This document shows, piece after piece, positions 20,332 through 56,133 of a DNA stretch of 64,000 nt. Every line of letters begins with the position of its first letter. Position 1 is the first letter of the stretch. The DNA is from Shimia isoporae (GTDB lineage Bacteria > Pseudomonadota > Alphaproteobacteria > Rhodobacterales > Rhodobacteraceae). Position numbers and translations under genes: made by a program. The stretch covers positions 62,001 to 126,000 of the forward strand of contig NZ_SMGR01000002.1 in assembly GCF_004346865.1 (NCBI RefSeq). The letters run 5' to 3'. The notes beneath the pieces are model-generated. The model searched no databases. It was not told where the DNA came from and was given only the letters and a program-made list of their open reading frames with translations.

Positions 20332-22766
20332 AAGCTGCGTAGATGCACCATGTCCGCATCATAAGGACTTGGAGTGATCACCTCAGCGGAAACCCTGCTA
20401 CCGCACATGTCGAGCTCCAGCGTCTTCCCGACTTCAGACTGGATACCCTCGACAAATGCCATCGCCAGATTCAGCCCCGTGCGATGCCCCCACGCGCCGG
20501 AGGTCACGGTCCCCACCACCTGATCGCCAAGCATCACGGACGCGCCACCATGCGCCGGTGCCCTGTCCGTTCCAACCGAGAGCGTTACCAATCGTTTCTG
20601 CGTTTGTTCGCGCTGGCGTGCTTGCAAGGCAGACCGTCCGACAAAGTCCACCTTTGACATGTCGACAAACCGGGCAAGCCCCGTTTCAAATGGGTCAAAC
20701 TCGGTCAACAACTCCGCTTTCCAGTGCAGATACCCCTTTTCCAGTCGCATTGACTCGATTGCCCGCGCTCCGAAAAACGACATACCATGCACCTCACCCG
20801 CGCGCTGCAAGGCGAGGTAGGCGCCATAGAGCTGGGCGTTCGGGACATGGATTTCATAAGCCAACTCGCCAGAAAAACTCACCGCCATGACGGTCGCAGG
20901 AGCGACGCCGACAAAGGCTTCGCGCACCGACAACCAAGGAAATCCTTCTGCTGTCCAATCCCCTCGGGATGCGGCAGATAAAACGTCCCGCGCCTTGGGG
21001 CCCGCCAAAAGCAAAATGGTCTGGTCATTGGTCAGGGACCGGATATCCACGTCCTCATCCGCACGGACATGCGCCCGTAGCCAATCCATATCGTGGAACT
21101 CGCTGGCAGCCGCAGAGCCATACCATACCCGCTCAGGTCCACGGTCGCTCGCAGGTAAGTTTGCCAGAGTTGCTTCTGCCTTGATCATCCCATGATGGTT
21201 CAGCAGATACGTCAGACCAACCCGCCCGTTTTTGCGCGGCAGGCGCCCGCAGATCATACGATCCAGAAAGGCATGCCGGTCCTTTCCTGTGATTTCGATC
21301 CGATTGAACCCGTTGATTTCACTCAACCCGACACCAGAGCTGACGGCCTCCACTTCGGCAGCTTCGACAGCGAACGCCTCGGTGAAGTCAAACCCGTGTA
21401 TTTCTTGAAATCCGGCGGTGGGCTTTATGTAATCGATCCGCTCCCAACCGTTCACCACTGTGAACTCCGCGCCTGCTGCGGCGAAAACGGGTGTCAGCGG
21501 CGTGGTTTTTATCGGACGCCCTGCCGGACGATGTTCATGTGGAAAATGAAACCGGAACTCGTTCTGGTAGTCCTCGATCGCCTTGAGCGCTGTGAGTTCC
21601 ACATTGCCATGCCCCGTGAAACGGCGCGGATCAATCACCCAAGTGTCATAGCAAGCCTCACCATGTACAATCTGTTGCGCCAGCAACCAGCCGTGTCCGC
21701 CACCTTCGCCCAAGCCCGCCCGAAGTCCGATGATGCAGAACGCATTGCGTTTCCCGGGGATCGGACCAACCAAAGGCGCTCCGTCGATGGTGTAGGTTAT
21801 GGGCCCGTTGATGACAGTATGAATGCCCGCTTCCATCAGCGCGGGCATACGCTCAAAGGCGCCTTCCAGCACGTCCGTAACACGATCCAGATCGTCGGGG
21901 CACAGCGCGTTGGCAAAGCCCGGATCGATGCCGTCCATGCCCCACGTCTTGCAATCCTGCTCATAGAACCCGAGCAGCAGTCCGTTCTTTTCCTGCCGAC
22001 AGTAGTAGTCGCTGATCGGGCAACGCAGCAGCGGCATGCGGTGGTCTGCGTCTCGGATGGCGGGGATTTCCTCTGTGAGAAAGTACTGGTGCTCCATCGA
22101 CGCTACCGGATGGTGCACACCCATCATCGCCCCCACTTCGTTCACGCGATAACCGCATGCGTTTACAACAATATCGGCGTGCACGACTCCTTTCGTGGTC
22201 GTGACTTCCCACGTGTCGTCTTTCAACTGCTTGAGCGCTGTAACCGGTGTGTGGCGATGCACCTCCGCACCTGCCTTGCGGGCGCGGCGGGCCAGCGCCT
22301 GACAAAGCTGGGCCGGATCAATGTCGCCGTCCATAGGATCCCACAATCCGCCGAGAAGATTGTCAGTGGAGATCAACGGATGCCGTCGAGCACACTCTTC
22401 GGCGTCGATGACTTCAAAGTTGACGTCCATCCCGCGTGCCATGCTCGCAAAGTGTCGGTACCCCTGCATCTGCGCTTCTGTATTGGCCAGCCTGATACCC
22501 CCGTCACCATGGTGATAATTGATGGGGTAATCCGGATCGCTGGCCAGATCCTGATAAAGGCGGATCGAGTGGCTTTTTAGGCCCACCATGGTCTGCGTCA
22601 TGCCAAAGTTGGTGACCTGTGCCGCAGAATGCCAAGTCGTCCCGGACGTCAATTCGTCACGCTCCAGCAACATCACATCGCTCCATCCCTCCTGCGTGAG
22701 GTGATAAAGCGTCGAGCATCCGGCAATGCCGCCCCCGATGACCACAACTTTGGTGCGTGATTTCAT
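20325..22766 (-). CDS. FAD-dependent oxidoreductase fused to GcvT (dimethylglycine/sarcosine dehydrogenase-like)
   Basis: An 813-residue two-part enzyme. The N-terminal DAO fold (about residues 1-390) begins VVVIGGGIAGCSTLYHL and carries a flavin-attachment-type segment SGTTWHSAAQVTNFG. The C-terminal half (about 430-813) is a tetrahydrofolate-binding GcvT domain with C-terminal barrel. Such fusions oxidatively demethylate N-methylated glycines and pass the carbon to tetrahydrofolate. The ATG at 22766 is chosen because TTGGAGG just upstream serves as its ribosome site rather than as a TTG start. It stands 105 bases after nosX on the same strand but has no evident link to N2O reduction. Confidence 0.85.
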   Translation of the reverse strand: MKSRTKVVVIGGGIAGCSTLYHLTQEGWSDVMLLERDELTSGTTWHSAAQVTNFGMTQTMVGLKSHSIRLYQDLASDPDYPINYHHGDGGIRLANTEAQMQGYRHFASMARGMDVNFEVIDAEECARRHPLISTDNLLGGLWDPMDGDIDPAQLCQALARRARKAGAEVHRHTPVTALKQLKDDTWEVTTTKGVVHADIVVNACGYRVNEVGAMMGVHHPVASMEHQYFLTEEIPAIRDADHRMPLLRCPISDYYCRQEKNGLLLGFYEQDCKTWGMDGIDPGFANALCPDDLDRVTDVLEGAFERMPALMEAGIHTVINGPITYTIDGAPLVGPIPGKRNAFCIIGLRAGLGEGGGHGWLLAQQIVHGEACYDTWVIDPRRFTGHGNVELTALKAIEDYQNEFRFHFPHEHRPAGRPIKTTPLTPVFAAAGAEFTVVNGWERIDYIKPTAGFQEIHGFDFTEAFAVEAAEVEAVSSGVGLSEINGFNRIEITGKDRHAFLDRMICGRLPRKNGRVGLTYLLNHHGMIKAEATLANLPASDRGPERVWYGSAAASEFHDMDWLRAHVRADEDVDIRSLTNDQTILLLAGPKARDVLSAASRGDWTAEGFPWLSVREAFVGVAPATVMAVSFSGELAYEIHVPNAQLYGAYLALQRAGEVHGMSFFGARAIESMRLEKGYLHWKAELLTEFDPFETGLARFVDMSKVDFVGRSALQARQREQTQKRLVTLSVGTDRAPAHGGASVMLGDQVVGTVTSGAWGHRTGLNLAMAFVEGIQSEVGKTLELDMCGSRVSAEVITPSPYDADMVHLRSFY

Positions 22767-22870
22767 TCTGCCATCCTCCAACCGCGCCGGGAACAGGGCA
22801 CTTCATGTGGCCTGTTTCGTCAAGCGTGGAGAGATGGCAATTGATGGTCTGGTCCGTTTACGACACCCAC

Positions 22871-25100: not shown

Positions 25101-25993
25101 TGCGCGCCCTCCTGAGCAAAGTGGCGATAAAGGTCTTCGAGTTTGGGTGGCGCGATATCGACATCCACAACCACGTCGCCAAGCGTCGCGATACGGCGCA
25201 GCGCGTCCATCTTGTCCGGCGTTTCGATTTCAATCTCGACAGAGGCACCGTTGATCCTGAGCCCACCGGTCTGGGCCGCCAGTTGATCGGCCTTGCCTTC
25301 GGAGGCTCTCATACGCAGGCGTGTCCGCAATCCTGCCTGAGCCGACAACCCGGCCAATGAATCATCCGCAACCAGATGTCCCTTGCGCAATATTGCGATC
25401 CGATCAGTGCGGGCCTCAACTTCGGTCAGCGCATGGCTGGCGATCAACACAGCGCAGCCGTCTTGCGCCAGTTCGTCAATGATAGCGTACAAGTCCTGAC
25501 GGGAGATCGGATCAAGCCCGCTGGTCGGTTCATCCAGAAGCGCCAGTTTCGGCTTGCCGAGCAACACCTGCGCCAACCCGAGACGTTGTCGCATACCTTT
25601 GGAATAGGTTCCGATCCGACGGTCCAACGCATCCGCCAGACCGACCCTTTCCATGATACCGGCGATGTCGGCCTTCACTCCAGACAGGCGCGCAAACAGA
25701 GCGAGTTGCTCGCGTCCGCTCAGGGCCGGGTGAAAACTCACGGCCTCGGGTAGGAAAGCTGTGGCCGCGCGCGCTGCACTGCTGCCTGGTTTGTGACCGG
25801 CGATTGCGACAGCGCCATCGCTGATTGGCGTCAGACCGAGAACCGTCTTGATAAGTGTCGACTTGCCCGCGCCATTGTGGCCCAACAGGGCGACACGTTC
25901 TCCGGCTTTCACGGACAGGGACACATCGTGCAACACACGCGTTCTGCCGCGATCCTTGCTCAGACGATCAATGTTCAGAATGTTATCCGTCAT
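25097..25993 (-). CDS. nosF: NosF, ABC ATPase for NosZ maturation
   Basis: A 298-residue ATPase with Walker A GHNGAGKST (38-46), a signature-like YSKGMRQRLGLAQ and Walker B LALLDEPTSGLDP. It energises NosY. It overlaps nosD by 11 bases and nosY by 4. Confidence 0.94.
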   Translation of the reverse strand: MTDNILNIDRLSKDRGRTRVLHDVSLSVKAGERVALLGHNGAGKSTLIKTVLGLTPISDGAVAIAGHKPGSSAARAATAFLPEAVSFHPALSGREQLALFARLSGVKADIAGIMERVGLADALDRRIGTYSKGMRQRLGLAQVLLGKPKLALLDEPTSGLDPISRQDLYAIIDELAQDGCAVLIASHALTEVEARTDRIAILRKGHLVADDSLAGLSAQAGLRTRLRMRASEGKADQLAAQTGGLRINGASVEIEIETPDKMDALRRIATLGDVVVDVDIAPPKLEDLYRHFAQEGAQ

Positions 25994-27245
25994 GGTCCAC
26001 CTTTCTTGCGGCTTCCGGTTTTACCGGTGCCATTAGGGGAAAACTGTCGATCACGCCGCCGGGAAGAAGTGCAGGAAAGGCGGATTGCGACCAGCGCACC
26101 AGCTGTACTGCAGGCGAACCAAGCAAAAGCTTGGCCGAAGGTTGCTGCCAAAGGATGTGATCCATGCTGTCATTGGGCCGGTAGGGCGCGTCACCAATTC
26201 CGTCCCCGTTTACATCGTAGGCCGCGTTGTCGCTCCAGAAATTGCCGCGCCCGTCTTCGGACCACTCGTGCCATTTGGTACTTACAAGTTTCACCTGCGT
26301 GCGATTTGCGATGAATGCATTGCCGTGGATCTTGTTGTCCTGACTGCCCGCTGTGAAGTGGATGCCAATACCGCAGCCTTCAAACCAGTTATCGGCAAAT
26401 GTGTTCTTGTTCGCATTGTAGAGAAACGTGCATTTCTCTTTGGCACCGCGCACATAATTTCCGGTGATCACCGACCGGTTGGCATAGTTCAGCATGACCC
26501 CATGCTCTCGGTCGTTGATCGACACATTGTCTTTGACCTCGACGTTCGAGGTGAACATCACCGCATAGCCAAGGTCGTTGTTGATCGAAATATTACCGCT
26601 GACCTCGGATCGGTCTGCGTACATGTAGTGCACGGCAAATCGCAGGTCCCGGAACAGGTTGTTGCGGAAAACGTTCTTCTTGCTGGAATTCACAAAAATT
26701 CCGTCTCGACCCCAGCGCACCTTGTTGTTTTCAACGATGGCGCCCGGTGCGTTCCAGACGTAAATCCCGTTGCCGCGCCGGTTCATGAGGCGATCCTGTC
26801 GACCCTCGATCCGGTTGCCCGAAACCAGCGCATCTTTGGCGCCGTGTATATCGATGCCATAGAGATTGCCGATCAGCACGTTATCTAGAATTTGTGGTGC
26901 ATAGGCTGTTTTTTTCAGCTGGATCCCGCTGTCGATTGTGTCGTGACTGTCTCCTGATCCGACAAGCGTCAGGCCTTTGACTGTGACACCATCGCCGGTG
27001 ACTGTGACCACGCTACCCTGCCCTTGGGCATCCAAGGTGGCATGACCACGGCCATCCAGCGTCACGGGGCGGTCCAGCACAACCGCCTCGTGATAGGTGC
27101 CGGCGCTCAGGCGAAGGATGTCTCCATCCGCCGCCTGTGCCAGTGTTTGTGCTATGGCCCCGTCCCGCAACGGAACGTCCCATTCCGCCGCCCACAAGGG
27201 CAACGTCACAAGGCTCAAAGCCAAAGAAAGGGGCCAGAGTTTCAT
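25983..27245 (-). CDS. nosD: NosD, periplasmic right-handed beta-helix maturation protein
   Basis: A 420-residue exported protein (signal peptide about residues 1-19) made of parallel beta-helix (CASH/pectate-lyase-like) repeats: runs of N/G-V-I/I-x-N such as VSGNRIEGR, VENNKVRWG and VFRNNLFRD. NosD receives copper from NosL and hands it to NosZ while bound to NosFY. It starts 2 bases after the nosZ stop. Confidence 0.93.
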   Translation of the reverse strand: MKLWPLSLALSLVTLPLWAAEWDVPLRDGAIAQTLAQAADGDILRLSAGTYHEAVVLDRPVTLDGRGHATLDAQGQGSVVTVTGDGVTVKGLTLVGSGDSHDTIDSGIQLKKTAYAPQILDNVLIGNLYGIDIHGAKDALVSGNRIEGRQDRLMNRRGNGIYVWNAPGAIVENNKVRWGRDGIFVNSSKKNVFRNNLFRDLRFAVHYMYADRSEVSGNISINNDLGYAVMFTSNVEVKDNVSINDREHGVMLNYANRSVITGNYVRGAKEKCTFLYNANKNTFADNWFEGCGIGIHFTAGSQDNKIHGNAFIANRTQVKLVSTKWHEWSEDGRGNFWSDNAAYDVNGDGIGDAPYRPNDSMDHILWQQPSAKLLLGSPAVQLVRWSQSAFPALLPGGVIDSFPLMAPVKPEAARKVDHDG

Positions 27246-27247
27246 GG

Positions 27248-29158
27248 TTACGCGTCCCGTGGTTCAACAAACATGCGACCGCGCATTTCCATGTGCAACG
27301 CATGGCAGAACCACTGGCAGTAGTACCAATGCACGCCGGGCCGTTCCGCTACGAATGTCACCGATGCGGTCTGTTGAGGCCCGACTTCCATTGCGACACC
27401 AAAGTTCGCCATACAGAAGCCGTGAGTCAGGTCATCGATGTCATCAAGGTTGGTCACGATGACTGTCACCTCGTCGCCTTGCTTCACGGTGAAGCTCTCC
27501 ATCGAGAACGTCGGCGCCTGGCTGGACATATAGACACGCACCTTGTTGCCATCGCGGATGAACTCTTCCTGATAGTCATCAAGATCGACGCCGTCTGCTT
27601 CTGCCTGGGCACGTGTTTCCGCCCAAGTCGGGTCGTTTCGGTCATAGGCGTTGAGAGGGTTCACGATGTCACGGCGCACGATGATGCTGTCATGCGGTTC
27701 GGCAAACGTCGGACCGTCGTGCACAACTTCAAAGTTGTTGCCTGAGATGTCGATCAACTGCTCATTCTCCGGTTTCAGCGGGCCGACATTCAGGAAGCGG
27801 TCCTTGGAGAACTTGTTCATCGACACCAGCCATTTGCCATCGGCATCCTTGGTTTCACCCATGGAGGTCGAGTTGTGACCCGGCTGATACTGCACATCGA
27901 CTTTGTCGAGGATCGGATCAACATCTTCGCCTGCGAACTGACGAATTGCCGCGTCGAGGTTCCACTTCACCACCTGACTGTCGAGGAACAGGGTGGTGAA
28001 AGCATTGCCTTGACCGTCGTACGCAGTGTGTAGCGGGCCAAGCCCCAACTGAGGTTCTGCCACGATTGCAGAGCGTGGATCCGCATCGTTGTAGAACACA
28101 TCGTCCAACTTCTCGACATCCATCACCGACACTGTCGGGGACAGCTTGCCGGCGATACAAACATGTTTGCCGTCGGGGGCGGTGTTGATGCCGTGCGGCG
28201 AGTTCGGGATCGGAATGTAACGGGTGTAGTTTTTGTTCGACCCTTTGCGACCGTCCACAACCTTTACGCCATTCAGTTCCTGGTAGTCGCCTGCCGCGAT
28301 GCCCGCCTCGATTTCCTTAAGGTTGAACACAACAACATGGTCGAGTTCGTTCTCGGTCATCTCGGCGAGGTTCATGCCCATTTCCGAGTTGTAGGAGGTC
28401 GAGAAGGCATATTTGCCCTGATAGTCGCAGTCAGTGTTGTCGAGGTTACCCGACACCATGACCTGCCATGCGATCTCCATGGTGTCGCCGTCAATGGCGG
28501 TATAAATGTTCACGTACTGGCTTGGATCATCCAGTACGGAACCATCGTTCACCAATGGTGCTTCGTGCTCGCCATTCGCAAAGACATACCCCGTGCGCGG
28601 ATACTTTTGCGGACGCAGACCGTGAATGTCATGCGCATTCGGGATCTCGATGATCTTGTCGCACTTCATGATGTCAACGCGGACGCGAGCGACCCGTGTG
28701 TTCGCCTTATCGTTCATAAACAGGTAGCGGCCATCATAGGTGCCGTCCGTGAATGACATATGCGGGTGGTGCAAATCGCCGTTGTCGTAGGTCTGTTTGC
28801 CATTGGCCGCGAGGAAGGCTTTGGTGTCCTCGGTCAACCCTTCGGTCAGGATTTTCAGCGACTCGTTGGTCTGTCCCCAGCCAGTGGCCGAGCAGCGGTT
28901 AAACACCGGAACGCGCATCAACTCGCGCATGGACGGCACACCAAGAATGCGCAATTCGCCGGTCTGACCCGAGGACCAGAAACCGTAATACTCGTCGAGA
29001 TCTCCCGGCTGGAGATGCCAGTTGTTAGCCGCCACAGCAGGGGTGGCTCCCATCATGGTCGCGCCTACGCCGGTGGTCGCCAGAACGGCCCCTGTTGCAG
29101 TTGCACCAAGCATGCCGCGGCGGGTCATGGTGAGGTTGTTTTTGGTGTCTTCAGACAT
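27248..29158 (-). CDS. nosZ: Nitrous oxide reductase (clade I)
   Basis: A 636-residue periplasmic N2O reductase, the terminal step of denitrification (N2O to N2). The Tat signal TRRGMLGA (Arg13-Arg14) marks the clade I type. A seven-bladed propeller holds the CuZ histidines (HPHMSF, HDIHG, PHGI and later His residues). The C-terminal cupredoxin domain keeps the CuA ligands Cys614, Cys618, His622 and Met625 in [14 protein letters not shown]. Length and all recognisable ligand motifs are normal, so the enzyme should be functional. It lies 18 bases after nosR behind a GAAGGAGG ribosome site. Confidence 0.97.
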
Positions 29159-29176
29159 TCTTGCCTCCTTCAGAGA

Positions 29177-31360
29177 TTATGTCTTCTTCGCATTGGGATG
29201 GTTCTTCGGAGCGTCCTTGCTAGGGATCTTGATCTCCGAAGAGCCTGTTGCCGCCCGTCGTTTCAGTTGACGGATGACAACGGGACATTTGTCTTCACTC
29301 TGGTAGAGCACCTGACAGTGAAGACAGTTCACGCATTCATTGGGGTTGATCTCGCCGGTGGGATGGATCGCCTGCACCGGACATTCGTTGGCGCAGGTTT
29401 GGCAGGGCGAACCGCATTCCTTGTAGCGTCGCAGCCAGTCGAACATCCGCATTCGGGCCGGAATGGCCAACGCGCCGCCCAGTGGACACAGGTAGCGACA
29501 GTAGAACCGCTCGACAAAAAGACCTGCGAGAAGGATCAACAACGCGAAGACCACAAACGGCCAGTCACGCACAAATTTGAGAATAATGGCGGTCTTGAAC
29601 GGCTCGACTTCCGCAAGCTGTTCCGCAACCGGAATGGACGCCAGCGAAACACCGAATAGACCGAGGAAGACCATGTATTTGATCGGCCACAAACGCTCGT
29701 GCAGGCCCCACGGCAAGGTCCATTGCGGCACTTTGAAATAGCGCGCGATCTGATTGGTCAGTTCCTGAAGGGCACCAAACGGACACAACCAGCCGCAATA
29801 GGCCCCGCGCCCCCAGAACAGCAATGCCGCGGCAATTGCAAACCACTGGATAAAGACCAGTGGATCCATCAGGAAAGCGTCCCACGTGAACCCGGATCGC
29901 AGGCTGCCAGCCAAAGCCATTATGTTCACGACCGAAAGCTGGGCGTTGGCATACCAGCCGATGAAAAACAGCGTCATGGTAAGGAAACCGATGCGGAACC
30001 AGTAGAACCGGCGCGGCTTCCAGGTTGCCTGAAACTGGAAGAAGAAAGTCGCCGTCAGTACCAAGAGCATGCTGCATAGGACCGCAATCTCGACGGTTTT
30101 GTCCTTCCAGATGCGCTTCCAAAGGTCGGCCTTGGCCGCCGCTTCGTCCGACGCATCGTCTACGACCGCGAGCTTTGGAAGCGGCAACATGAAACGTTCC
30201 GGTAAAGTGTACCCGAGGTCCCATGTAAGAAAGACCCGGTCCAACGCCCCGACGGAGCGCTGTACCAGAAGTTGCAGGCGAAACCCCTCGGTCGGGTCAA
30301 ACTCCGCATCTGCAGGGATTTTGAAAATATCCAATTCGCGGAAACTCGGGGCGTCATCCGTGGCTAGTGCCCCCAGACGACGATGCATTTTGTCAAAAAA
30401 ACGCACCGAATTATCACCCTGAATAAGTTGGATACGGTCGAATATCCCACCGCGGACATACCCTGATCCCTTGAACGAATAGGTTCCGCGTCCGAGCACC
30501 AGGATGGCGTGCTCACCCTCGTCGAGCCAGTCGACAAGGTTGCGGTATTCGTGTTCGCCGAGCAAAGAGCGCCCGATCGCCGGCACGCTGACCAGCGCCA
30601 TATGCATATCAATGAAGGTGTCGTCAGGTTCACCCTTTTCGGGTCGCTTGGCCGCCCGCGCGTCTTCCATCTTCTCGAAAGCGGCGTTCACCTGACCCAC
30701 ATCAAGGGTCAGTCGCCGGACCGATCCGTCACCGGCAAGGGTTGTCCAGTCTTCGGTCTCGGTGATCGACAAATCCAGTTCCCGTTTGGGCCCTGTCTGG
30801 ACCGGAGACAGACCCCCCAGCCCGAGGGCCCGCGCCACCTTGATGCCGCCACGCACCAGACTGTCATCAATCACCATGATCGTGACGGTGGCTCCGGAAA
30901 TAATATCAAGGTCATGCCCCTCACCACCCGTGGCTGCCTCGATCTTGAGGTCGAGCCCCGTGTAACCTTCGGTCAGTTCCACCATGCGGGAATTCGGAAT
31001 GCCAATCAGCACAATCGGCTCGCTGTGCTTGACCAGTTTCACCCCGGTCAAAACCGCGTCCGCGTCGATGGCGGCGACCACATGGATCGGCTTGCCGGAA
31101 TAACCTGTCGTTCCAACAAAGTCAGAGGTTAGAAATGCCCAGGCAACCGTGTCTCCGTCTTTGATAACAGGCGCCACAGGGACGTCATCACGCACCGCAC
31201 CAAAAGACGTGGCACCGGGGTAAAGTTCGGCAGGTGTCAATTCCGGAAGAAAACTCTGCAGGCTATCCGCTTTGAGCGGGGTTGCCGCCGTACTTAGGAA
31301 GCTGAGCACCAGAGCCGCAATGACTGCGAGAAATCGTGAGAAGAAAGCTGTGTTCTTCAT
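29177..31360 (-). CDS. nosR: NosR, flavo-iron-sulfur membrane electron donor/regulator
   Basis: A 727-residue membrane protein. It has a signal, a periplasmic FMN-binding domain (about residues 90-180; the acceptor threonine lies in ISGATVT), several transmembrane helices (about 420-640) and a cytoplasmic polyferredoxin with CxxCxxxC clusters (CQTCANEC, CVNCLHC). The GAYCGWLCPFGAL and FYCRYLCPLGGAL motifs are the paired membrane cysteine motifs typical of NosR/NapH. It feeds electrons to NosZ and is needed for nosZ expression and activity. It overlaps the upstream CxxCxxC gene by 4 bases. Confidence 0.95.
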   Translation of the reverse strand: MKNTAFFSRFLAVIAALVLSFLSTAATPLKADSLQSFLPELTPAELYPGATSFGAVRDDVPVAPVIKDGDTVAWAFLTSDFVGTTGYSGKPIHVVAAIDADAVLTGVKLVKHSEPIVLIGIPNSRMVELTEGYTGLDLKIEAATGGEGHDLDIISGATVTIMVIDDSLVRGGIKVARALGLGGLSPVQTGPKRELDLSITETEDWTTLAGDGSVRRLTLDVGQVNAAFEKMEDARAAKRPEKGEPDDTFIDMHMALVSVPAIGRSLLGEHEYRNLVDWLDEGEHAILVLGRGTYSFKGSGYVRGGIFDRIQLIQGDNSVRFFDKMHRRLGALATDDAPSFRELDIFKIPADAEFDPTEGFRLQLLVQRSVGALDRVFLTWDLGYTLPERFMLPLPKLAVVDDASDEAAAKADLWKRIWKDKTVEIAVLCSMLLVLTATFFFQFQATWKPRRFYWFRIGFLTMTLFFIGWYANAQLSVVNIMALAGSLRSGFTWDAFLMDPLVFIQWFAIAAALLFWGRGAYCGWLCPFGALQELTNQIARYFKVPQWTLPWGLHERLWPIKYMVFLGLFGVSLASIPVAEQLAEVEPFKTAIILKFVRDWPFVVFALLILLAGLFVERFYCRYLCPLGGALAIPARMRMFDWLRRYKECGSPCQTCANECPVQAIHPTGEINPNECVNCLHCQVLYQSEDKCPVVIRQLKRRAATGSSEIKIPSKDAPKNHPNAKKT

Positions 31361-48854: not shown

Positions 48855-49808
48855 TTATCCGTCAATCCAGGACTGTACGGTCTTCATGTTGTCCGCAATC
48901 CAGTCTTCGGCAACCTCACGCGGATCACGCTTGTTCTCGAACATCTCGACGATCCAAGCATTGATCTCGTCGCCGGTGAACTGCACGTTGGAGAGCATCT
49001 TAGCCACTGGCGGGTTGCGTGTTTCCAAAGATTTAGAGTAGGCCACGTAGATGTCGTTGGAAGCGATCACGCAGTTAAACTCGGACACTTCCAGCCAATC
49101 TTCAGCGTCAAGGTTCACGTCTTCACAGCCTTCGGAGCGCGCCGGTTCTTTGACCGCAACAAGATCGTATTTCACGTGAATAGCTTCAGGTGTCCAATAG
49201 TAGAACAGCTGCGGCTTTTCAGCAGTATACGCGGCTTCCAGACCAGCTTTGAATGTGTCTGCAGATACAATGTTCGGCTCCCACAGGCCGTCCAGACCAT
49301 AGGATTTGAACTTGATCTGCCAGCGCTTGGTGGACGCCCAAGTCACGTCCCCCGCCCAGTATTCGCCTTTGCCGTTGCCATCGGTGTCGAACATTGCGGC
49401 GACCTCTGGATTGCGAAGGTCGTCAATACTGTCGACGGTACCGCGCATATAGCTCGGGACATAGATGTTGGACGTACCTTTGTAGGGCGAGTTGGTCACG
49501 ACAGTGCCGTTGCCGTCGATGTATTCATCCCAAAGAGCCTGCTGGTTTGGCATCCAGAGATCCGTGAAAACGTCGATGGATCCGTCACCCTTGTCCATGC
49601 CTGCCATAATCACGGCAGCCTGGTTCATGCCTGAGACGATTTCAGCGTCTCCGCCCATCTGGTCTTCAATGATGGCGGACAGCACATGACCGATGGCCTG
49701 TGCTCCGTTCCAGCTCAGGTCGGAGAAAGTGATTTTCTCCTGAGCCGAGACGCTTCCGGCCGCGGCCACAAGGGCGGCCAGTGCTACGGTTGTCTTAATG
49801 GTCTTCAT
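48855..49808 (-). CDS. Glycine betaine/quaternary amine ABC substrate-binding protein (ProX/OpuAC-like)
   Basis: A 317-residue periplasmic binding protein (signal about residues 1-22, ending SVSA). OpuAC-type blocks are ITFSDLSWNGAQAIGHVLSA, GSIDVFTDLWMPNQQ and PQLFYYWTPEAIHVKYDL, with Trp and Tyr residues like those that form the aromatic cage for a quaternary ammonium group. It is the distal gene of the minus-strand operon with permease, ATPase and the DUF1989-GcvT enzyme, so it probably feeds a methylated amine to that enzyme. Confidence 0.88.
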   Translation of the reverse strand: MKTIKTTVALAALVAAAGSVSAQEKITFSDLSWNGAQAIGHVLSAIIEDQMGGDAEIVSGMNQAAVIMAGMDKGDGSIDVFTDLWMPNQQALWDEYIDGNGTVVTNSPYKGTSNIYVPSYMRGTVDSIDDLRNPEVAAMFDTDGNGKGEYWAGDVTWASTKRWQIKFKSYGLDGLWEPNIVSADTFKAGLEAAYTAEKPQLFYYWTPEAIHVKYDLVAVKEPARSEGCEDVNLDAEDWLEVSEFNCVIASNDIYVAYSKSLETRNPPVAKMLSNVQFTGDEINAWIVEMFENKRDPREVAEDWIADNMKTVQSWIDG

Positions 49809-49841: not shown

Positions 49842-51644
49842 TTAGATGCGGCTGAACGAATTGCGGATACCGCGAAGGATGCGGTCGATCATCATCGCCA
49901 CCAAAGCGATTGCGATCCCCGCGAGGAGGCCCTTGCCCGCCTGCGCATCCCCGAGCGCAGCCGTTACGATTGCGCCGAGGCCTTCGGCGCCGATAAAGGC
50001 CGAGATGGTGGCCATCGAAAGGGCCAACATGATTGTCTGGTTAAGCCCCGCCATTATGGACGGGACCGCCATTGGCAGCTCTACTTTTCGCAATAGCTGC
50101 CGTTCTGATGCACCAAAAGCCAGAGCGGCTTCCTTGGTGCTTTCGGGGACTTGCCGAATGCCCAGCGCCGTGAGCTTGATCATAGGCGGCATGGCAAACA
50201 CCACTGTCGCCAACACAGCGGGTGGCTGCGAAATGCCGAAGAACGCCACCGCTGGCACAAGATAACTCAGCGACGGGATGGTCTGCATCACGTCCAGTAT
50301 GGGTTCGGTTATGAACCTCGCTATCTTGTTCTTGGCCATCCAGATTCCGATTGGCAGGCCGACAAAGACGCACACCGCCGTTGAAACAACAACCAAGGCC
50401 ATTGTCTGCATCGCGATCTGCCACAACTCGAAAAGCGCGAGGAAGGCGAGCGACGAAGCCACAAAGGCTGTTGTCCCCCAGCCCGTGTAGGCCCAACTCA
50501 GGACAAGGAAGAGGAATGCGACAACCGGCCAGGGCGTTTGCATGAACGCAACCTCAACCCGGATCAGGGACTGTCGCAATACGTTGGTCATGGCATCAAA
50601 GGCACCGGCAAAGGAAGCGCGAAGCCAATTGATCGAGATGTCGATGCTTTCGGCCGAGTATGTGAACAAGGTGACCTTGCGGCCCTCAACAGGCGGTTTG
50701 ATTTGGGCAACAACCTCTGTGCTGCCGTCGTCACCGGTCACACGGCGATACGTGACGTCCTCCGGCGGATCGAGCCTCGCCAGCGTTGGGAAATCGTCAA
50801 TGAAGAAGCAATCAAACCGGTCACGGGGAGTGATTGTCATGTATTCCTCAACCAAGTCGGAACTACGGCCAAGATCGCGCGCTTCGGCGCGAGCCACTTT
50901 GCGGGCTTCGTTTTGCTCAGCAGTACGATCCGAAATTGCATCCAGTTCGTCGAACCTGGACTGTGCGGCGGCTGCATCGTCCGCGACACGCCCGCTTAGA
51001 GAAGCAACATCGGGCAGCTGGTATCTCGCAAGCAGACTCTCAACACTTTCGGTTGCGCGGATCTGGTTGAAACATGCCCTTTCGTCGAGCCGCAACTGCG
51101 TCGCTCGATATGTGGTGATCGGCGTGCATAGCAGCATGATCGCGCAGCCGATCAGAAGCCTCTTGAGGGACACGCCGTTGGCCACAGTCGGGTCGATGCG
51201 CCAGCGATTGTATTGATCATAGTACCAGCGGTTGGCCTGGCTTCCCATCCAGATACGACCCGCGACAAGCAACAGCCAGCCGATGCTGCCATAGGTGCTG
51301 ATCCAGTTCGTATAGCGAGGGATGAGCGTACGGTTGGCCTCGGGATCAAGCTGGGCCTCGGCAAGAAGCGGAGAGAATTTCACCACCTGCATCAGGCACA
51401 CGATCGCCACCACATCGATGGCGAGCGACACCCAGAACATCAGCCAGACACCGCGCCATGCCGCCCAGAACCAAGGTACGATCAAACCCCAGATGTTTAT
51501 GTGCCAGCGTGGCAGCTTGCCTCTCTGGTGACGCTCGAACACCGGCGCGTAGTAGGTTTCCTTGGTGTCGCAGAATGCGCCAATGGAGACATCGCGCTCT
51601 TCGATTTCGCGCTGCTCCGCGCCGCTATTTACTGTCGTGCTCAT
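49842..51644 (-). CDS. Quaternary amine ABC permease with long N-terminal extension
   Basis: A 600-residue membrane protein. The C-terminal part (about residues 400-600) is a ProW/OpuAB-type permease with EAA-like PESTKEAALAFGASERQLLR. The first 380 or so residues are unusual. There are aromatic-rich helices (NIWGLIVPWFWAAWRGVWLM and ANRWYYDQYNRWR, reminiscent of DUF2628 membrane domains). Then comes a charged helical region of about 150 residues rich in Arg and Ala (about 175-340) before the next helix. ProW itself also has an N-terminal extension, but much shorter. It overlaps the ATPase gene by 4 bases. Confidence 0.85.
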   Translation of the reverse strand: MSTTVNSGAEQREIEERDVSIGAFCDTKETYYAPVFERHQRGKLPRWHINIWGLIVPWFWAAWRGVWLMFWVSLAIDVVAIVCLMQVVKFSPLLAEAQLDPEANRTLIPRYTNWISTYGSIGWLLLVAGRIWMGSQANRWYYDQYNRWRIDPTVANGVSLKRLLIGCAIMLLCTPITTYRATQLRLDERACFNQIRATESVESLLARYQLPDVASLSGRVADDAAAAQSRFDELDAISDRTAEQNEARKVARAEARDLGRSSDLVEEYMTITPRDRFDCFFIDDFPTLARLDPPEDVTYRRVTGDDGSTEVVAQIKPPVEGRKVTLFTYSAESIDISINWLRASFAGAFDAMTNVLRQSLIRVEVAFMQTPWPVVAFLFLVLSWAYTGWGTTAFVASSLAFLALFELWQIAMQTMALVVVSTAVCVFVGLPIGIWMAKNKIARFITEPILDVMQTIPSLSYLVPAVAFFGISQPPAVLATVVFAMPPMIKLTALGIRQVPESTKEAALAFGASERQLLRKVELPMAVPSIMAGLNQTIMLALSMATISAFIGAEGLGAIVTAALGDAQAGKGLLAGIAIALVAMMIDRILRGIRNSFSRI

Positions 51645-52696
51645 TCGTCCGCGCTCCCCTGAAGGCCGTGCAGCAATGTGTTCTTGTCGACAACCCCGAC
51701 AAGTTTTCCGTCAGCCTTGATGAGGACCGGAAGGTCAGCGTGCGTGCTGAGTTCAACCAATGAATCAAGGTCATCTTCGGGGCGTGCTTCGGGGTGTTGT
51801 TGCGTCAGATCCAATGGATGCCGCTTGGCTTGATACTCGTCAGGCGGCACCATTATTTTCGCTGCGGAAACAAGTTTCAATCGGGAGATTCCCGCAACAA
51901 AATCAGCGACATAATCATCTGCTGGGGCTGTAACGATATCTTCGGCCGTGCCAATCTGGACGATCTCCCCATCCTTCATAATCCCGATGCGGTCCCCCAT
52001 ACGGATCGCCTCATCCAGATCGTGGGTGATAAAGACAGTGGTCTTTTTCAGGTTGGCCGAAAGTCCCAGAAATTCGTCCTGCAGATTGCGGCGAATGAGC
52101 GGATCCAATGCAGAGAACGGTTCGTCCATCAGTAGAATTTCAGGGTCCGCGGCCAGCGCACGGGCCAATCCAACCCGTTGCTGCATTCCGCCGGAGAGCT
52201 CTGATGGAAGCCGGTCCCCGTATCCGTGCAAGGAAACAGTTTCCAAAGCCTCATCCGCAAGCTTGGCGCGGTGATAGGCGTCCATCCCGCGCAGCTCGAG
52301 TGCGAAGCCGATATTGTCTCGCACCGACCGGTGCGGCAACAGCGCCATATTCTGAAACACCATCCCGATCTTGGTGCCACGCAAGGCGCGCAATGCATCT
52401 GGGCGCATCTTGCCGATGTCCTCACCCAAAATCCTGATCGAGCCCGCAGACGGTTCTATCAATCGGTTGATGTGGCGCACCAACGTCGACTTACCGGAGC
52501 CAGACAACCCCATCAGGCAGAATATCTCTCCCTCGCCAACGGCAAAACTCGCGTCCTTGACGCCAACGACGGCACCAAAACGTGCAAGCACCTCCGCCTT
52601 GCCAATTCCTTCTGCCCTGATCGCGTCCATCGCTTCCTGCGCGCGATCTCCAAAGACTTTCCAGACACCATCCAGTGCCACAACCGGGTCGCTCAT
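51641..52696 (-). CDS. Quaternary amine ABC ATPase with CBS domain (ProV/OpuAA-like)
   Basis: A 351-residue ATPase with Walker A GLSGSGKST, LSGGMQQRVGLARAL, Walker B ILLMDEPFSALDP and a single C-terminal CBS-like unit (about residues 290-345). The N-terminal insert EAMDAIRAEGIGKAEVLARF before the P-loop is typical of the betaine class. CBS units in OpuA sense ionic strength; with only one unit that function is uncertain. Overlaps both neighbouring genes by 4 bases. Confidence 0.9.
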   Translation of the reverse strand: MSDPVVALDGVWKVFGDRAQEAMDAIRAEGIGKAEVLARFGAVVGVKDASFAVGEGEIFCLMGLSGSGKSTLVRHINRLIEPSAGSIRILGEDIGKMRPDALRALRGTKIGMVFQNMALLPHRSVRDNIGFALELRGMDAYHRAKLADEALETVSLHGYGDRLPSELSGGMQQRVGLARALAADPEILLMDEPFSALDPLIRRNLQDEFLGLSANLKKTTVFITHDLDEAIRMGDRIGIMKDGEIVQIGTAEDIVTAPADDYVADFVAGISRLKLVSAAKIMVPPDEYQAKRHPLDLTQQHPEARPEDDLDSLVELSTHADLPVLIKADGKLVGVVDKNTLLHGLQGSADE

Positions 52697-55017
52697 GCCC
52701 TTGCCCTCTCTCGTTTTGGGTCAAAAAACGGCACGTCGCACACTGTCGCGGTCAATCTCTTCATCCTTCCGTCAAGTTGGCCCACCTCCAGCGTTTCGCC
52801 GGCAACTGCAAATTCGATTGCGAGGCGGGCCATCGCAATGCTGCATTCAAACATTGGGGATCGGGTGGCCGAGGTAATCACGCCAACTTGCCGTTCTCCC
52901 GCGAATATTGGCGCACCATGTGCTGGCACGTCATTGCACGCGAACTTTAACCCGCTCAGCACCCGACGTGGGTCGCGGGCATTGCGCTCAAGTGCTGCCT
53001 TGCCGATGAAGTCGGCCTTTCTGAGATCAACTGCAAACCCCAGCCCAGCCTCAAAGGCATCAATTCCAGCCGCAAACTCGTTGCGAGAAGCCAATCCAGC
53101 CTCGATGCGGATTGTTTCCAGCGCCTCACCGCCCATGGGAGTAATCCCCAAATCCTCGCCGGCAGTCATCACCGCATCCCACAACGCAGGCGCATCGCTG
53201 GCCGCGCAGAACAATTCGTAACCGAGCTCACCAGTGTAGCCGGAGCGGGAAAGCATAAATGGTATTCCCTCACGATCGCCCACTCGCGCGATCGTCACCC
53301 CAAACCACTTTAGCTCCTGCAAAGAGGGATGCGTCGGTTGAGTGAAGACAAAGCGCTCAAGTATCTCCCGCGACCTTGGTCCTTGCAGCGCGAGGTTTGG
53401 CAGAGCGCTTTCCATCCCGTGAACCCGAACCTGAAGGTTGTCCCGCTGTGCGACGTCCTCAAAGACGCGCGCGCTTTCTTCGGATCCGCAGCACCAGCGA
53501 TATAGGTCGGGCGCCAGGCGGAACAGTGTTCCGTCGTCCACAACTGTACCGGCTTCATCACAAATCAAGGCATAAGTGCCTCGCCAAACGGCAACCCGGG
53601 ACACGTCACGGGTGAGCGATTTCTGCAAAAGCGTTTCCGCGTCCGGACCAATGATGTCGTATTTTCTCAGGGACGACATGTCCTGCAAAGTCGCCTTCTC
53701 GCGACACGCCCAATATTCCCCGACGGTCCCGACCGACGGAAAGCTGGCTGGTGCCCACACATCGCGCGCCGGGGCAAAATGATTTGTCAATCTGGACGTC
53801 GCGGGGTGAAAAGCACTTTCCCGGCTAATTGTCATGGCCGCATCTTCCTTTTCACGATAAGCGATCGCACGCCGGATCGGGGCATCCGGACGATAGATGC
53901 GCACATGCACATCAGTTGGGTTCCAGCCGTTGATCGGATCGATGTCGTCAGGACAGGCCGTTGTCACACAAACCAACTCTTCCAGCGCCCGCATCGCCAC
54001 GTAGTCGCCGGGTCGAGAGTGGCTTTCCTCCGTATGAATTTGATGACTATGCGGATCGACCCATGTGCTCCAAAAGAAGTTGATCGCCGGCCATGCGGCT
54101 CTGGCGGCCACACCTCGAGACGACAGAGCGCCTGAAATATTGTCCGAGCAGTTCAGATGTCCGGGAAAGCCTCGGTCAGCATATCCTCTGTCCGTACAAG
54201 CCATACCGAACGCATCGTGACGCCCGCAGGTATCCTGCAGAACCTGCATCATCGGCCTCAAGTCCTGATCGTAGAACTTGTCATACAGGCCCGGGCCCGG
54301 ATAGGCACCGCGCACCATTGTGCGCGTGGCCGTCGTATCGATCATAATGTCGCGGCCTTCGTCCAGCGCTTTGCTTCTGAGCGCAACAAAGTCTGAACAC
54401 TGCTGCCCTTCCACATCAATAATCTGAACAATTTCCCCCGGGCGCAGGTCGTAAGCCATCGCAGTCCCACGACGGACAGTAAATTCCTCTCGCACGTCGC
54501 CAAGCGGCGGTGGGAGAGCCACTCCCGCATCTACCGCGGCAGGCTTGACGGACACTTGGACCGCACCAAGAGCGGCGGCACTCACCAGTTCATTTGCGCT
54601 CTGCGGGCGGACGACCCAAACGGTACATGTCGCGGATGCGGACAGCGCTAGAAGGTCGTCAAGCGGCACCCAAGCGGCTGGAAGAGCCGCGTTACGATCG
54701 CCACCGTTCGCAGATACCCAGCCTAACAATTCGTCACTTTGAAAGGACGAGGGCGCCAAGTCCTCTCCGGCCTCCAACCCAAGAATTGTGGGCGCAACTT
54801 TACCCCGCGCGTCAAAAACCAGAACCGCAACCGATTGATCGCCCCCCATCGGGCGCAAACTCAGCATGTCGTGTTTTTTGAGATCGAAGCGCGCCGTTTC
54901 ACGTGCCGCAATCACGTCAGTCCGACTGTGAGATCTTGGGACAAAACCGGGGAACGCTCTGCCGTTGCCGGCAAAACCGATGTTTTCAAAGCTATGTAGT
55001 AACGCGCTATTCAACAC
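52693..55017 (-). CDS. DUF1989-GcvT fusion enzyme (aminomethyltransferase-like)
   Basis: A 774-residue, apparently three-part protein starting at a GTG. Residues about 30-160 form a divergent first domain (KKHDMLSLRPMGGDQSVAVL) that looks like a degenerate copy of the second. Residues about 176-376 are a DUF1989 (urea-carboxylase-associated) domain with IDVEGQQCSDFVAL, HDAFGMACTDRG, CSDNISGAL and VTTACPDDIDPINGW, whose Cys/His set suggests a metal site. Residues about 400-774 are a GcvT tetrahydrofolate-binding methyltransferase (LQDMSSLRKYDIIG, RSGYTGELGYELF). DUF1989 proteins are subunits of carboxyguanidine deiminase in other bacteria; GcvT proteins demethylate amines or DMSP. Co-transcribed with a betaine-type importer, it may degrade a methylated nitrogen compound. 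Confidence 0.82.
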   Translation of the reverse strand: MLNSALLHSFENIGFAGNGRAFPGFVPRSHSRTDVIAARETARFDLKKHDMLSLRPMGGDQSVAVLVFDARGKVAPTILGLEAGEDLAPSSFQSDELLGWVSANGGDRNAALPAAWVPLDDLLALSASATCTVWVVRPQSANELVSAAALGAVQVSVKPAAVDAGVALPPPLGDVREEFTVRRGTAMAYDLRPGEIVQIIDVEGQQCSDFVALRSKALDEGRDIMIDTTATRTMVRGAYPGPGLYDKFYDQDLRPMMQVLQDTCGRHDAFGMACTDRGYADRGFPGHLNCSDNISGALSSRGVAARAAWPAINFFWSTWVDPHSHQIHTEESHSRPGDYVAMRALEELVCVTTACPDDIDPINGWNPTDVHVRIYRPDAPIRRAIAYREKEDAAMTISRESAFHPATSRLTNHFAPARDVWAPASFPSVGTVGEYWACREKATLQDMSSLRKYDIIGPDAETLLQKSLTRDVSRVAVWRGTYALICDEAGTVVDDGTLFRLAPDLYRWCCGSEESARVFEDVAQRDNLQVRVHGMESALPNLALQGPRSREILERFVFTQPTHPSLQELKWFGVTIARVGDREGIPFMLSRSGYTGELGYELFCAASDAPALWDAVMTAGEDLGITPMGGEALETIRIEAGLASRNEFAAGIDAFEAGLGFAVDLRKADFIGKAALERNARDPRRVLSGLKFACNDVPAHGAPIFAGERQVGVITSATRSPMFECSIAMARLAIEFAVAGETLEVGQLDGRMKRLTATVCDVPFFDPKRERARA

Positions 55018-55039
55018 GACAGCCCCGAGAATCCTCAGA

Positions 55040-55053
55040 TGTAACTAGTTACA
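55040..55053. promoter_or_regulatory. LacI-type operator, copy 1
   Basis: TGTAACTAGTTACA is a perfect 14-base palindrome, 22 bases upstream of the DUF1989-GcvT start. Half-site TGTAAC is shared with the second copy 45 bases away. Confidence 0.72.
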
Positions 55054-55084
55054 CAACAGCGTCACATTCGGAGTCAACAAAATT

Positions 55085-55098
55085 TGTAACCAGTTACA
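55085..55098. promoter_or_regulatory. LacI-type operator, copy 2
   Basis: TGTAAC-CA-GTTACA has perfect 6-base arms and lies 21 bases before the LacI start. Paired with copy 1 it covers both divergent promoters, as expected for an autoregulated repressor. Confidence 0.72.
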
Positions 55099-55119
55099 TT
55101 TCGTGCTTTATGTGTGTGC

Positions 55120-56133
55120 ATGACCAGGAAACGAGACAAGAAGCGCGCAAACCTCCGCGACGTGGCACGTGCAGCCGAGGTCTCGGTGGCGACAGTTTCG
55201 CGTGTTCTCAACACACCTGATGTCGTTCAAAAGAAAACCCGCGAGAAAGTTGAAAAGGTCATCGCGGAGCTCGGATTTCACCCCAGCGCTGCCGCCCGCG
55301 CAATCAATTCCGGCCGCACCAAGATCATCGGAGCGCTGATCCCTACTTTGGACAGCGATATCTTTGCGATAACGATAGACGCAATCGAGAGCCGCTTGGG
55401 AGACTTTGGATTTTCCTTGGTCGTCGCCACAACCGGTGAAGACCCGGACGTGGAAGCGGCACGTGCCAGGGAATTGCTCGATATTGGTGTTGAAGGCCTG
55501 TTCTTCCCGGGCATCCATCACAGTCAAGAACTATACGATCTTCTTGACCGCACTAAGGTGCCGACGATCGCGATTTCATATTTCGATGCGACTTTTGCAT
55601 ATCCGACCATTGGCTATGACAACCGCGAAGCCGCGCGTCTGGCGCTGGACCATTTGCTCGATCTGGGGCACCGCCGTATCGCTGTCGTACATGGACCGAA
55701 AGACCACAACGACCGCACACGCGCCCGCGTCACTGGGGCGTCGACGCAACGCTCTGGTACGGAACTGGCTTTCTTTGAAACAGATCTATCTGTTGCCGGA
55801 GGCGCCAAAGCCGCACGCGATGCAATGAAACAACCGACAGAGTTCGACGCCTATCTCTGTACCTCGGACACGCAAGCCTTTGGGGCCATTTTCGAATTGC
55901 AACGCGCAGGTATTCAGGTTCCCAACGACGTATCCGTGATGGGGTTACATGATCTACCCAGTGCGCAATATGTAAATCCAAGCCTGTCCACGATTGAACT
56001 TCCGGTCAGGGAAATGGGCACTTTGGCAGCTGAATCTCTGGCGCGATGGGTGGAAAAAGACGTTCGTCCCGCGCCTGTATGCCTTCCCTCACAACTACGC
56101 GCCCGCGCCTCCACCGCCCGCAAAGAGAATTGA
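55120..56133 (+). CDS. LacI-family regulator divergent from the DUF1989-GcvT operon
   Basis: A 337-residue regulator with helix-turn-helix ANLRDVARAAEVSVATVSRV (about residues 10-29) and a sensor domain (about 65-330). ATG at 55120 is chosen; a GTG 6 bases upstream is equally possible, and no ribosome site is evident. LacI-type proteins mostly sense sugars, so controlling a quaternary-amine system is unusual. Two matched operators lie in the shared 102-base promoter region. Confidence 0.88.
   Translation: MTRKRDKKRANLRDVARAAEVSVATVSRVLNTPDVVQKKTREKVEKVIAELGFHPSAAARAINSGRTKIIGALIPTLDSDIFAITIDAIESRLGDFGFSLVVATTGEDPDVEAARARELLDIGVEGLFFPGIHHSQELYDLLDRTKVPTIAISYFDATFAYPTIGYDNREAARLALDHLLDLGHRRIAVVHGPKDHNDRTRARVTGASTQRSGTELAFFETDLSVAGGAKAARDAMKQPTEFDAYLCTSDTQAFGAIFELQRAGIQVPNDVSVMGLHDLPSAQYVNPSLSTIELPVREMGTLAAESLARWVEKDVRPAPVCLPSQLRARASTARKEN

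Follow-up and report, generated by a model that had tools for sequence, protein, structure and literature searches.

In the sea, small methylated amines and onium compounds rank among the important currencies of nitrogen and carbon. One 64,000-nt stretch of the Shimia isoporae genome (the window, below) carries an operon in which the gene for a 774-residue protein with DUF1989 and GcvT domains is followed by the genes for a ProVWX-type ATP-binding cassette (ABC) importer and faces a divergent lacI gene. Which compound does this operon take up and degrade? We place the enzyme in a sister clade, for which the name Tdm2 is coined here, of the trimethylamine N-oxide (TMAO) demethylase Tdm. The reading that we favor, without holding it firmly, is that of a LacI-repressed operon that imports and demethylates a small onium or amine-oxide compound, probably not TMAO or not TMAO only.

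Domain Layout and Family of the Enzyme

All five genes were found as a preliminary description of this DNA had listed them, namely, lacI and a four-gene operon leaving the shared promoter (Table 1). Open reading frames (ORFs) and Pfam scans (matches kept at E ≤ 0.001) bore out an ATPase gene overlapping tdm2 by 4 bases, a permease gene overlapping the ATPase gene by another 4, and a binding-protein gene behind them. The composition given for the enzyme, a weak N-terminal domain joined to DUF1989 and GcvT domains, likewise held in the ORF, in Pfam, and in profile comparison. GCV_T matched residues 409-662 (187.7 bits) and GCV_T_C residues 685-766 (60.5 bits); residues 1-179 had no Pfam match at the threshold used. 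In four single profile comparisons, the N-terminal domain matched DUF1989 with E values of 0.0002 to 0.035 and probabilities of 1.5 to 46%, and a GcvT control gave 0.38, a similarity that agrees weakly with the published view of this domain as DUF1989-like and does not prove it.

The best NCBIfam model was that of TMAO demethylase (NF053776; 1023.6 bits over residues 28-774), the score lying under the curated cut-off of 1100 bits, and the closest PDB chains were the Tdm entries 9q59 and 9q5a, which presumably come from a Paracoccus. Tdm2 aligned with 9q59 over residues 159-773 (584 bits), leaving the N-terminal domain unaligned, and the canonical protein L021 aligned with it over residues 5-788 (1268.7 bits). 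The Tdm of Methylocella has three domains, of which the N-terminal one is DUF1989-like and without zinc cysteines (PMC12560246). Because this layout has already been described, the 774-residue protein is best regarded not as a new fusion but as the known Tdm arrangement, with a DUF1989-like, a DUF1989, and a GcvT domain in one chain, the first of them weak by sequence.

Tdm2 as a Sister Clade of Canonical Tdm

Matches at E values up to 1e-150 were present in 79 of 295 genomes of the window's family and fell into two score groups: 67 (1114-1244 bits) exceed the cut-off, and 18 (987-1066 bits) fall short of it. In a tree of 49 proteins, a branch with support of 100/100 separated 17 Tdm2 proteins, the window's included, from 32 canonical rows. 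The eighteenth low scorer (L056; 1003.9 bits), cut by a contig end, grouped with canonical Tdm, and its genome, G155, was counted as canonical after the tree; L058 (genome G083), barely over the cut-off at 1113.9 bits, also stood on the canonical side. The sister form occurs in 17 of the 295 genomes, 11 of them without canonical Tdm and 6 with one copy of each form.

A second tree, made by a quick method with a midpoint root and including Tdm from outside the family, set 31 Tdm2 rows against 36 canonical ones. Fourteen of the 80 relatives from named genomes considered below entered this tree, and all group with Tdm2. A survey of the phylum gave a match in 26 of 398 genomes, 24 of these over the cut-off, and the 24 rows added from it, from inside and outside the family and class, all fell on the canonical side. 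One of these, L195, scored 1078 bits and is canonical by position, which shows that a score under the cut-off does not by itself make a protein Tdm2. Identity of the window protein is 49-69% with other Tdm2 proteins and 37-43% with 56 canonical rows, and the protein lies outside the clade of the solved structure 9q59. Trees and identities together place it in a separate, deep sister clade of TMAO demethylase. Among open-licence papers in PMC, we found none on a Tdm sister clade or on its control by LacI.

A canonical protein of Ponticoccus carries the name tdm in its record, and the record of a Paracoccus seriniphilus plasmid labels its Tdm2 just "aminomethyltransferase family protein." On that plasmid, tdm2 (L170, 6676-8923) is annotated as two overlapping coding sequences and is therefore either broken or wrongly sequenced, whereas lacI and each of the three importer genes are annotated there as one coding sequence.

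Metal-Site Residues

The Methylocella Tdm positions C263, H276, C279, C343, D346, and D198 (PMC12560246) correspond in the same order to C274, H287, C290, C355, D358, and D209 of the window enzyme, a mapping that rests on the spacing of the residues and on an alignment to 9q59 rather than to the Methylocella sequence. D209, C274, H287, and C290 lie inside the DUF1989 domain, and C355, D357, and D358 lie directly behind it. The window enzyme has the zinc cysteines, the iron His and Asp, and the catalytic Asp of Tdm.

Residues were counted in 97 Tdm2 and 56 canonical rows, the Tdm2 rows not being deduplicated and at least seven contigs being doubled among them (L044/L159, L045/L120, L049/L128, L051/L124, L053/L132, L055/L154, and L057/L087). 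C274, H287, C290, C355, and D209 are conserved in all 97 Tdm2 rows, and D358 is Asp in 94 and Glu in 3. The entries 9q59 and 9q5a differ at two Asp residues, whose window counterparts are D209 and D357; the latter, too, is kept in 97 of 97. Nearly fixed differences between the two forms adjoin these metal-site residues: Q205 (97/97 Tdm2) is Arg or Lys in 56/56 canonical rows, G278 (95/97) is Tyr in 53/56, S295 (94/97) is Asn in 54/56, and I362 (95/97) is Ala in 54/56. Metal-site residues that are kept, with changes beside them, suggest that the chemistry of Tdm2 is probably retained and that its pocket may be altered. An AlphaFold model of Tdm2 built from 17 rows was too weak (pLDDT 69.8, pTM 0.43) to show where the changed residues lie relative to a pocket; the best 50 of 844 Foldseek matches to this model (E up to 10) were all GcvT-fold and DUF1989 proteins, and 9q59 was absent from those 50.

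Tdm2 of the window thus shares with Tdm (NF053776; PDB 9q59/9q5a; Methylocella silvestris and Ruegeria pomeroyi) its layout, metal-site residues, catalytic Asp, and GcvT domain, and differs from it in its score below the curated cut-off, its own clade, its regulator and importer, and the replacements beside the metal site.

A Conserved LacI-Tdm2-Importer Module

Gene order was compared in the best 80 of 202 relatives in named genomes (58-69% identity over the best segment). An importer gene was counted if tblastn placed it on the strand of tdm2 and no more than 6 kb downstream, though some contigs end early. The loci come from Ruegeria, Leisingera, Shimia, Roseovarius, Tropicimonas, Roseibium/Labrenzia, Paracoccus, and Roseobacter, along with Planktomarina bins and records labelled Granulosicoccus, Hyphomicrobiales, and Geminicoccaceae. 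A divergent lacI faces tdm2 in 67 of the 80 (65 of 76 if only loci with over 1 kb of upstream sequence are counted). Downstream of tdm2 stand the genes for the ATPase in 67 loci, the binding protein in 65, and the permease in 64; all three are present in 63, and 59 combine the complete importer with lacI. The importer takes two forms, one as in the window, with a permease of about 600 residues and a type A binding protein, and the other with a permease of about 505 residues and a binding protein of type B, which shares 31-37% identity with that of the window. In a second locus set, 12 of 16 Tdm2 loci have lacI, and one of the other four begins about 500 bases before tdm2. When ORFs around tdm2 in the 80 loci were clustered, no further family separable from antisense ORFs came near the frequency of the core genes.

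Canonical tdm served as a control. In 20 canonical neighborhoods, some of them cut by contig ends, no adjoining LacI similar to our two queries (E up to 1e-15) was found; one has a LacI gene about 2.3 kb away (25% identity), and in Paracoccus aminophilus, a LacI gene lies about 2.2 kb behind tdm. The preliminary description had called LacI control of such a system unusual. That stands in comparison with the described regulators of trimethylamine (TMA) and TMAO systems, TmaR of the AraC type and TmoR of the GntR type (PMC13390433). Within the sister clade, by contrast, LacI is the rule.

Putative Operators in the Shared Promoter

The two TGTAAC-N2-GTTACA sites reported earlier in the promoter shared with the divergent lacI proved exact, and both lie in the 96-base gap between lacI and tdm2; the ATG at 55120 may be the real lacI start. 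A scan of the window by itself is no proof of operators: with two mismatches allowed, two matches were also reached in 21 of 100 shuffles. The 4.23-Mb genome as a whole contains TGWAACNNGTTWCA just three times, at the two promoter sites and at a weaker TGAAACTTGTTTCA, and the exact form of the palindrome occurs solely at the two promoter sites. In 68 LacI-tdm2 intergenic regions, the window's and 67 others, the operator TGWAAC-N2-GTTWCA is present at least once in 65 and twice in 43, for a total of 108 sites, where 100 first-order Markov resamplings averaged 0.01. Because of this recurrence in related promoters and their rarity genome-wide, the putative operators stand above chance. In the second locus set, the palindrome was found in all 12 lacI-bearing loci, at least five of which are contigs of the first set.

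The two sites are 21 or 22 bases apart in 33 of the 43 two-site promoters and 45 apart in the window. TTGACA lies at most 8 bases ahead of a TGWAAC half-site in 35 of the 68 promoters, a placement that fits repression. This divergent promoter with its conserved palindrome is what a LacI-family repressor with a local operator would have, and the uniqueness of the exact palindrome suggests that the LacI regulon is probably the tdm2 operon alone. The three promoters without a match (L131, L144, and L155) belong to LacI proteins at the distant end of the set, and their palindromes are altered; the LacI proteins of L131 and L144 are 39-40% identical to that of L041, and the LacI of L155 is 43% identical to the window's. 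In the promoter of L155, a changed palindrome, TGTAGACGTCTACA, occurs twice alongside this divergent LacI, and regulator and site have possibly coevolved.

The Binding Protein

W33, W85, W157, and W205 of the window binding protein stand at the four Trp-box positions of TmoX, the binding protein of the TMAO importer TmoXWV. In TmoX, Glu131 bonds the TMAO oxygen (PMC8918994); its counterpart in the window protein is Ser113, and Phe106 and Phe220 are replaced by Gln89 and Tyr203. Glu occupies the Glu131 position in 4 of 4 TmoX-like proteins and in none of 11 module binding proteins, which have Ser, Gln, Ala, or Thr instead, and all 11 have Tyr at the Phe220 position. DmpX, which binds dimethylsulfoniopropionate (DMSP), also has a Tyr (Tyr200) at this position (PMC10030565), and it retains the Glu that the module binding proteins have lost.

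Known importers resemble that of the window in part. TmoXWV shares the ProVWX-type ABC design, the OpuAC-fold binding protein, and the four Trp residues, and the window protein differs from TmoX in its Ser and, over the matching part, shares 22% identity with a close homologue of TmoX. The DMSP importer DmpXWV supplies the top Foldseek and phmmer match and the Tyr at the RnDmpX Tyr200 position; the window protein has Ser at the Glu113 position, is 22% identical, and is linked to tdm2 and lacI. The model of the window binding protein (79.4, 0.72) was matched with similar scores by DmpX, TmoX, and betaine- and choline-binding proteins.

Elsewhere in the window's genome, beside dapB and rbfA, an unlinked TmoX-like binding protein is encoded with an ATPase (L167, 402-2571, minus strand). 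It is 37% identical to a close TmoX homologue.

Is the Substrate TMAO?

A self-contained, LacI-linked operon for uptake and degradation of a small methylated nitrogen (or onium) compound, with one-carbon chemistry of the GcvT type, had been proposed for this locus, and this outline remains the best fit to the sequence. The ProVWX-type importer would bring in a small onium or amine-oxide compound, with the aromatic residues of the binding protein holding a TMAO-like or betaine-like molecule. By analogy with Tdm, the Zn/Fe site in the second DUF1989 domain of Tdm2 would split off a methyl group as formaldehyde, and the GcvT domain would pass it to tetrahydrofolate. LacI, bound to the two palindromes of the shared promoter, would be released by the substrate or by a product.

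The genomes that carry Tdm2 without canonical Tdm differ from those with canonical Tdm in the methylamine pathway, most of them being without it. GmaS over its cut-off was present in 2 of 11 Tdm2-only and 60 of 68 canonical genomes (Fisher P = 5e-6), and high-scoring DmmA, the split being set by us between 199 and 215 bits, in 0 of 11 and 39 of 68 (P = 4e-4); both tests carry no correction for kinship. The combination of GmaS and DmmA, usual though not universal in Tdm genomes, is missing from the window's genome, where neither GmaS over the cut-off, nor a high-scoring DmmA, nor a second Tdm was found. Apart from tdm2, this genome has 13 places with a match to the GcvT portion of the Tdm model. 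Its single match to the flavin-containing monooxygenase (FMO) family scores 67-73 bits with the Tmm structures 6kbw and 5gsn, the latter of which we take to be Tmm itself, and is distant from Tmm.

These absences, the lost Glu, and the altered surroundings of the metal site incline us to a substrate other than, or broader than, TMAO. The chief competing account, to which we give appreciable but clearly less weight, is that Tdm2 does demethylate TMAO, with a regulator and importer unlike those of canonical Tdm, the cell using TMAO as a one-carbon or energy source and letting dimethylamine exit. Several observations lean that way or else count against the reading we favor. Tdm is the best family; the metal-site and catalytic residues are kept; and the four TmoX Trp residues are present in the window's binding protein. 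D357 corresponds to an Asp that is altered in 9q5a, and at this position 11 of the 56 canonical rows have another residue (Cys in 10, Ser in one); the fourth Trp is replaced by Tyr in all six type B binding proteins. The unlinked TmoX-like protein has Glu at the Glu131 position and might be a component of a TMAO importer. A low-scoring gene of the DmmA family is present in the window's genome, some match of this kind occurring in 229 of the 295 family genomes. LacI is absent from 13 of the 80 loci, and both LacI and the importer are absent from 9, some of them cut by contig ends. Finally, SAR11 has Tdm without Dmm (PMC5520151), so a missing DmmA is compatible with TMAO. What holds us back from a TMAO demethylase is the separate clade, the retention of both enzymes in 6 genomes, the loss of the TMAO-binding Glu, the changed residues adjoining the metal site, and a genome in which no GmaS over the cut-off and no second Tdm were found and whose lone FMO-family protein is far from Tmm.

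Two other accounts seem very improbable. The two DUF1989-like halves had been proposed as a fused carboxyguanidine deiminase A-B pair (CgdA/CgdB), which would act on a methylated guanidino acid with demethylation by GcvT. The enzyme does share a DUF1989 domain with that deiminase and has two DUF1989-like domains in tandem, the first of them weak, but the family does not support the proposal: the urea-amidolyase-associated DUF1989 models TIGR03424 and TIGR03425, which presumably correspond to CgdA and CgdB, gave 85.3 and 56.5 bits, far below their cut-offs (284.7 and 205.95), Pfam matches nothing in the N-terminal domain, and the layout, the residues, and the fused GcvT domain are those of Tdm. 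Scarcely easier to credit is an importer that serves osmolytes and merely adjoins tdm2, the enzyme's substrate being made inside the cell. Such a separation could explain why CuyA-like and divergent LysR-like genes stand between tdm2 and the importer in L054, L137, and L147 and why an importer gene is missing within 6 kb in three loci with LacI (in L112, just 274 bases lie downstream). Against it, tdm2 of the window and the ATPase gene overlap by 4 bases, and in 63 of 80 loci the full importer follows tdm2.

Returning to a substrate beyond TMAO, we put at about even the narrower proposal that Tdm2 demethylates a betaine-like onium compound or methylated amine oxide that is not TMAO, and that LacI-Tdm2-ProVWX is a hitherto unrecognised catabolic module of many, mostly marine, Alphaproteobacteria. 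Its conservation in Ruegeria, Leisingera, Roseovarius, Roseibium, Paracoccus, and their relatives hints at a further substrate, and, if the proposal is true, the module serves a nutrient outside the TMA/TMAO pathway. Calling every match to the family Tdm would also overcount users of TMAO, given the 17 of 295 family genomes that have the sister form, 11 of them with that form alone.

Variable Neighborhoods and Other Features

Table 1. Features of the tdm2 locus in the window
Feature	Position	Strand	Basis
tdm2 (774-aa TMAO demethylase paralogue, GTG start)	52693-55017	-	ORF, NF053776 profile, PDB 9q59, trees
N-terminal degenerate DUF1989-like domain, about residues 29-165	54523-54933	-	weak profile similarity; domain described in Tdm
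DUF1989 domain, residues 180-348	53974-54480	-	Pfam, 141.5 bits
GcvT domain and C-terminal barrel, residues 409-766	52720-53793	-	Pfam GCV_T, GCV_T_C
ProV/ChoV-type ABC ATPase gene	51641-52696	-	ORF, Pfam, NCBIfam
ProW/ChoW-type permease, 600 aa	49842-51644	-	ORF, Pfam, NCBIfam
OpuAC-type substrate-binding protein (type A), last gene of the operon	48855-49808	-	Pfam, Foldseek/phmmer, alignment
LacI-family regulator, divergent from tdm2	55114-56133	+	Pfam LacI and Peripla_BP
Putative LacI operator 1, TGTAACTAGTTACA	55040-55053		exact match; conserved in related promoters
Putative LacI operator 2, TGTAACCAGTTACA	55085-55098		exact match; conserved in related promoters

Selected genes next to tdm2, in loci that lack the usual importer or LacI, gave no clue to the substrate: they vary by locus and include TctA with a TctDE-like pair, a sugar-acid dehydratase, an E1 dehydrogenase, and a hydantoinase. 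In L041 (12470-17907) and L053 (2412-7769), tdm2 lies near a TctA-type transporter gene and a TctDE-like two-component pair, identified in the former by the scan and in the latter by clustering with L041; neither has a ProVWX-type importer beside tdm2.

In L054 (3749-7958), L137 (11337-17103), and L147 (11331-17097), tdm2 and lacI are found beside LysR-like and CuyA-like genes, followed by a related importer of the OpuAC type. The LysR-like gene, assigned by eye, is divergent and lies with the CuyA-like gene between tdm2 and the importer; a 337-residue reverse ORF in L054 was rejected as spurious, the LysR-like gene sitting, by eye, on the opposite strand. The CuyA-like proteins of L054 and L147 exceed the NCBI cut-off for D-cysteate sulfo-lyase (487.9 and 493.2 against 450), and that of L137 is 84% identical to that of L147, so that importers of this kind are possibly tied to sulfonates.

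The window holds a second GcvT protein, 30 kb away (818 residues; 20325-22781, minus strand), whose DAO, FAO_M, and GCV_T domains form a layout of the dimethylglycine/sarcosine dehydrogenase type. Genes for nitrous oxide reduction occupy 25983-31360 on the same strand, with Pfam matches to NosD at 25983-27245 and to nitrous oxide reductase propeller repeats at 27248-29158, and with a 727-residue 4Fe-4S protein at 29177-31360 that we take to be probably nosR.

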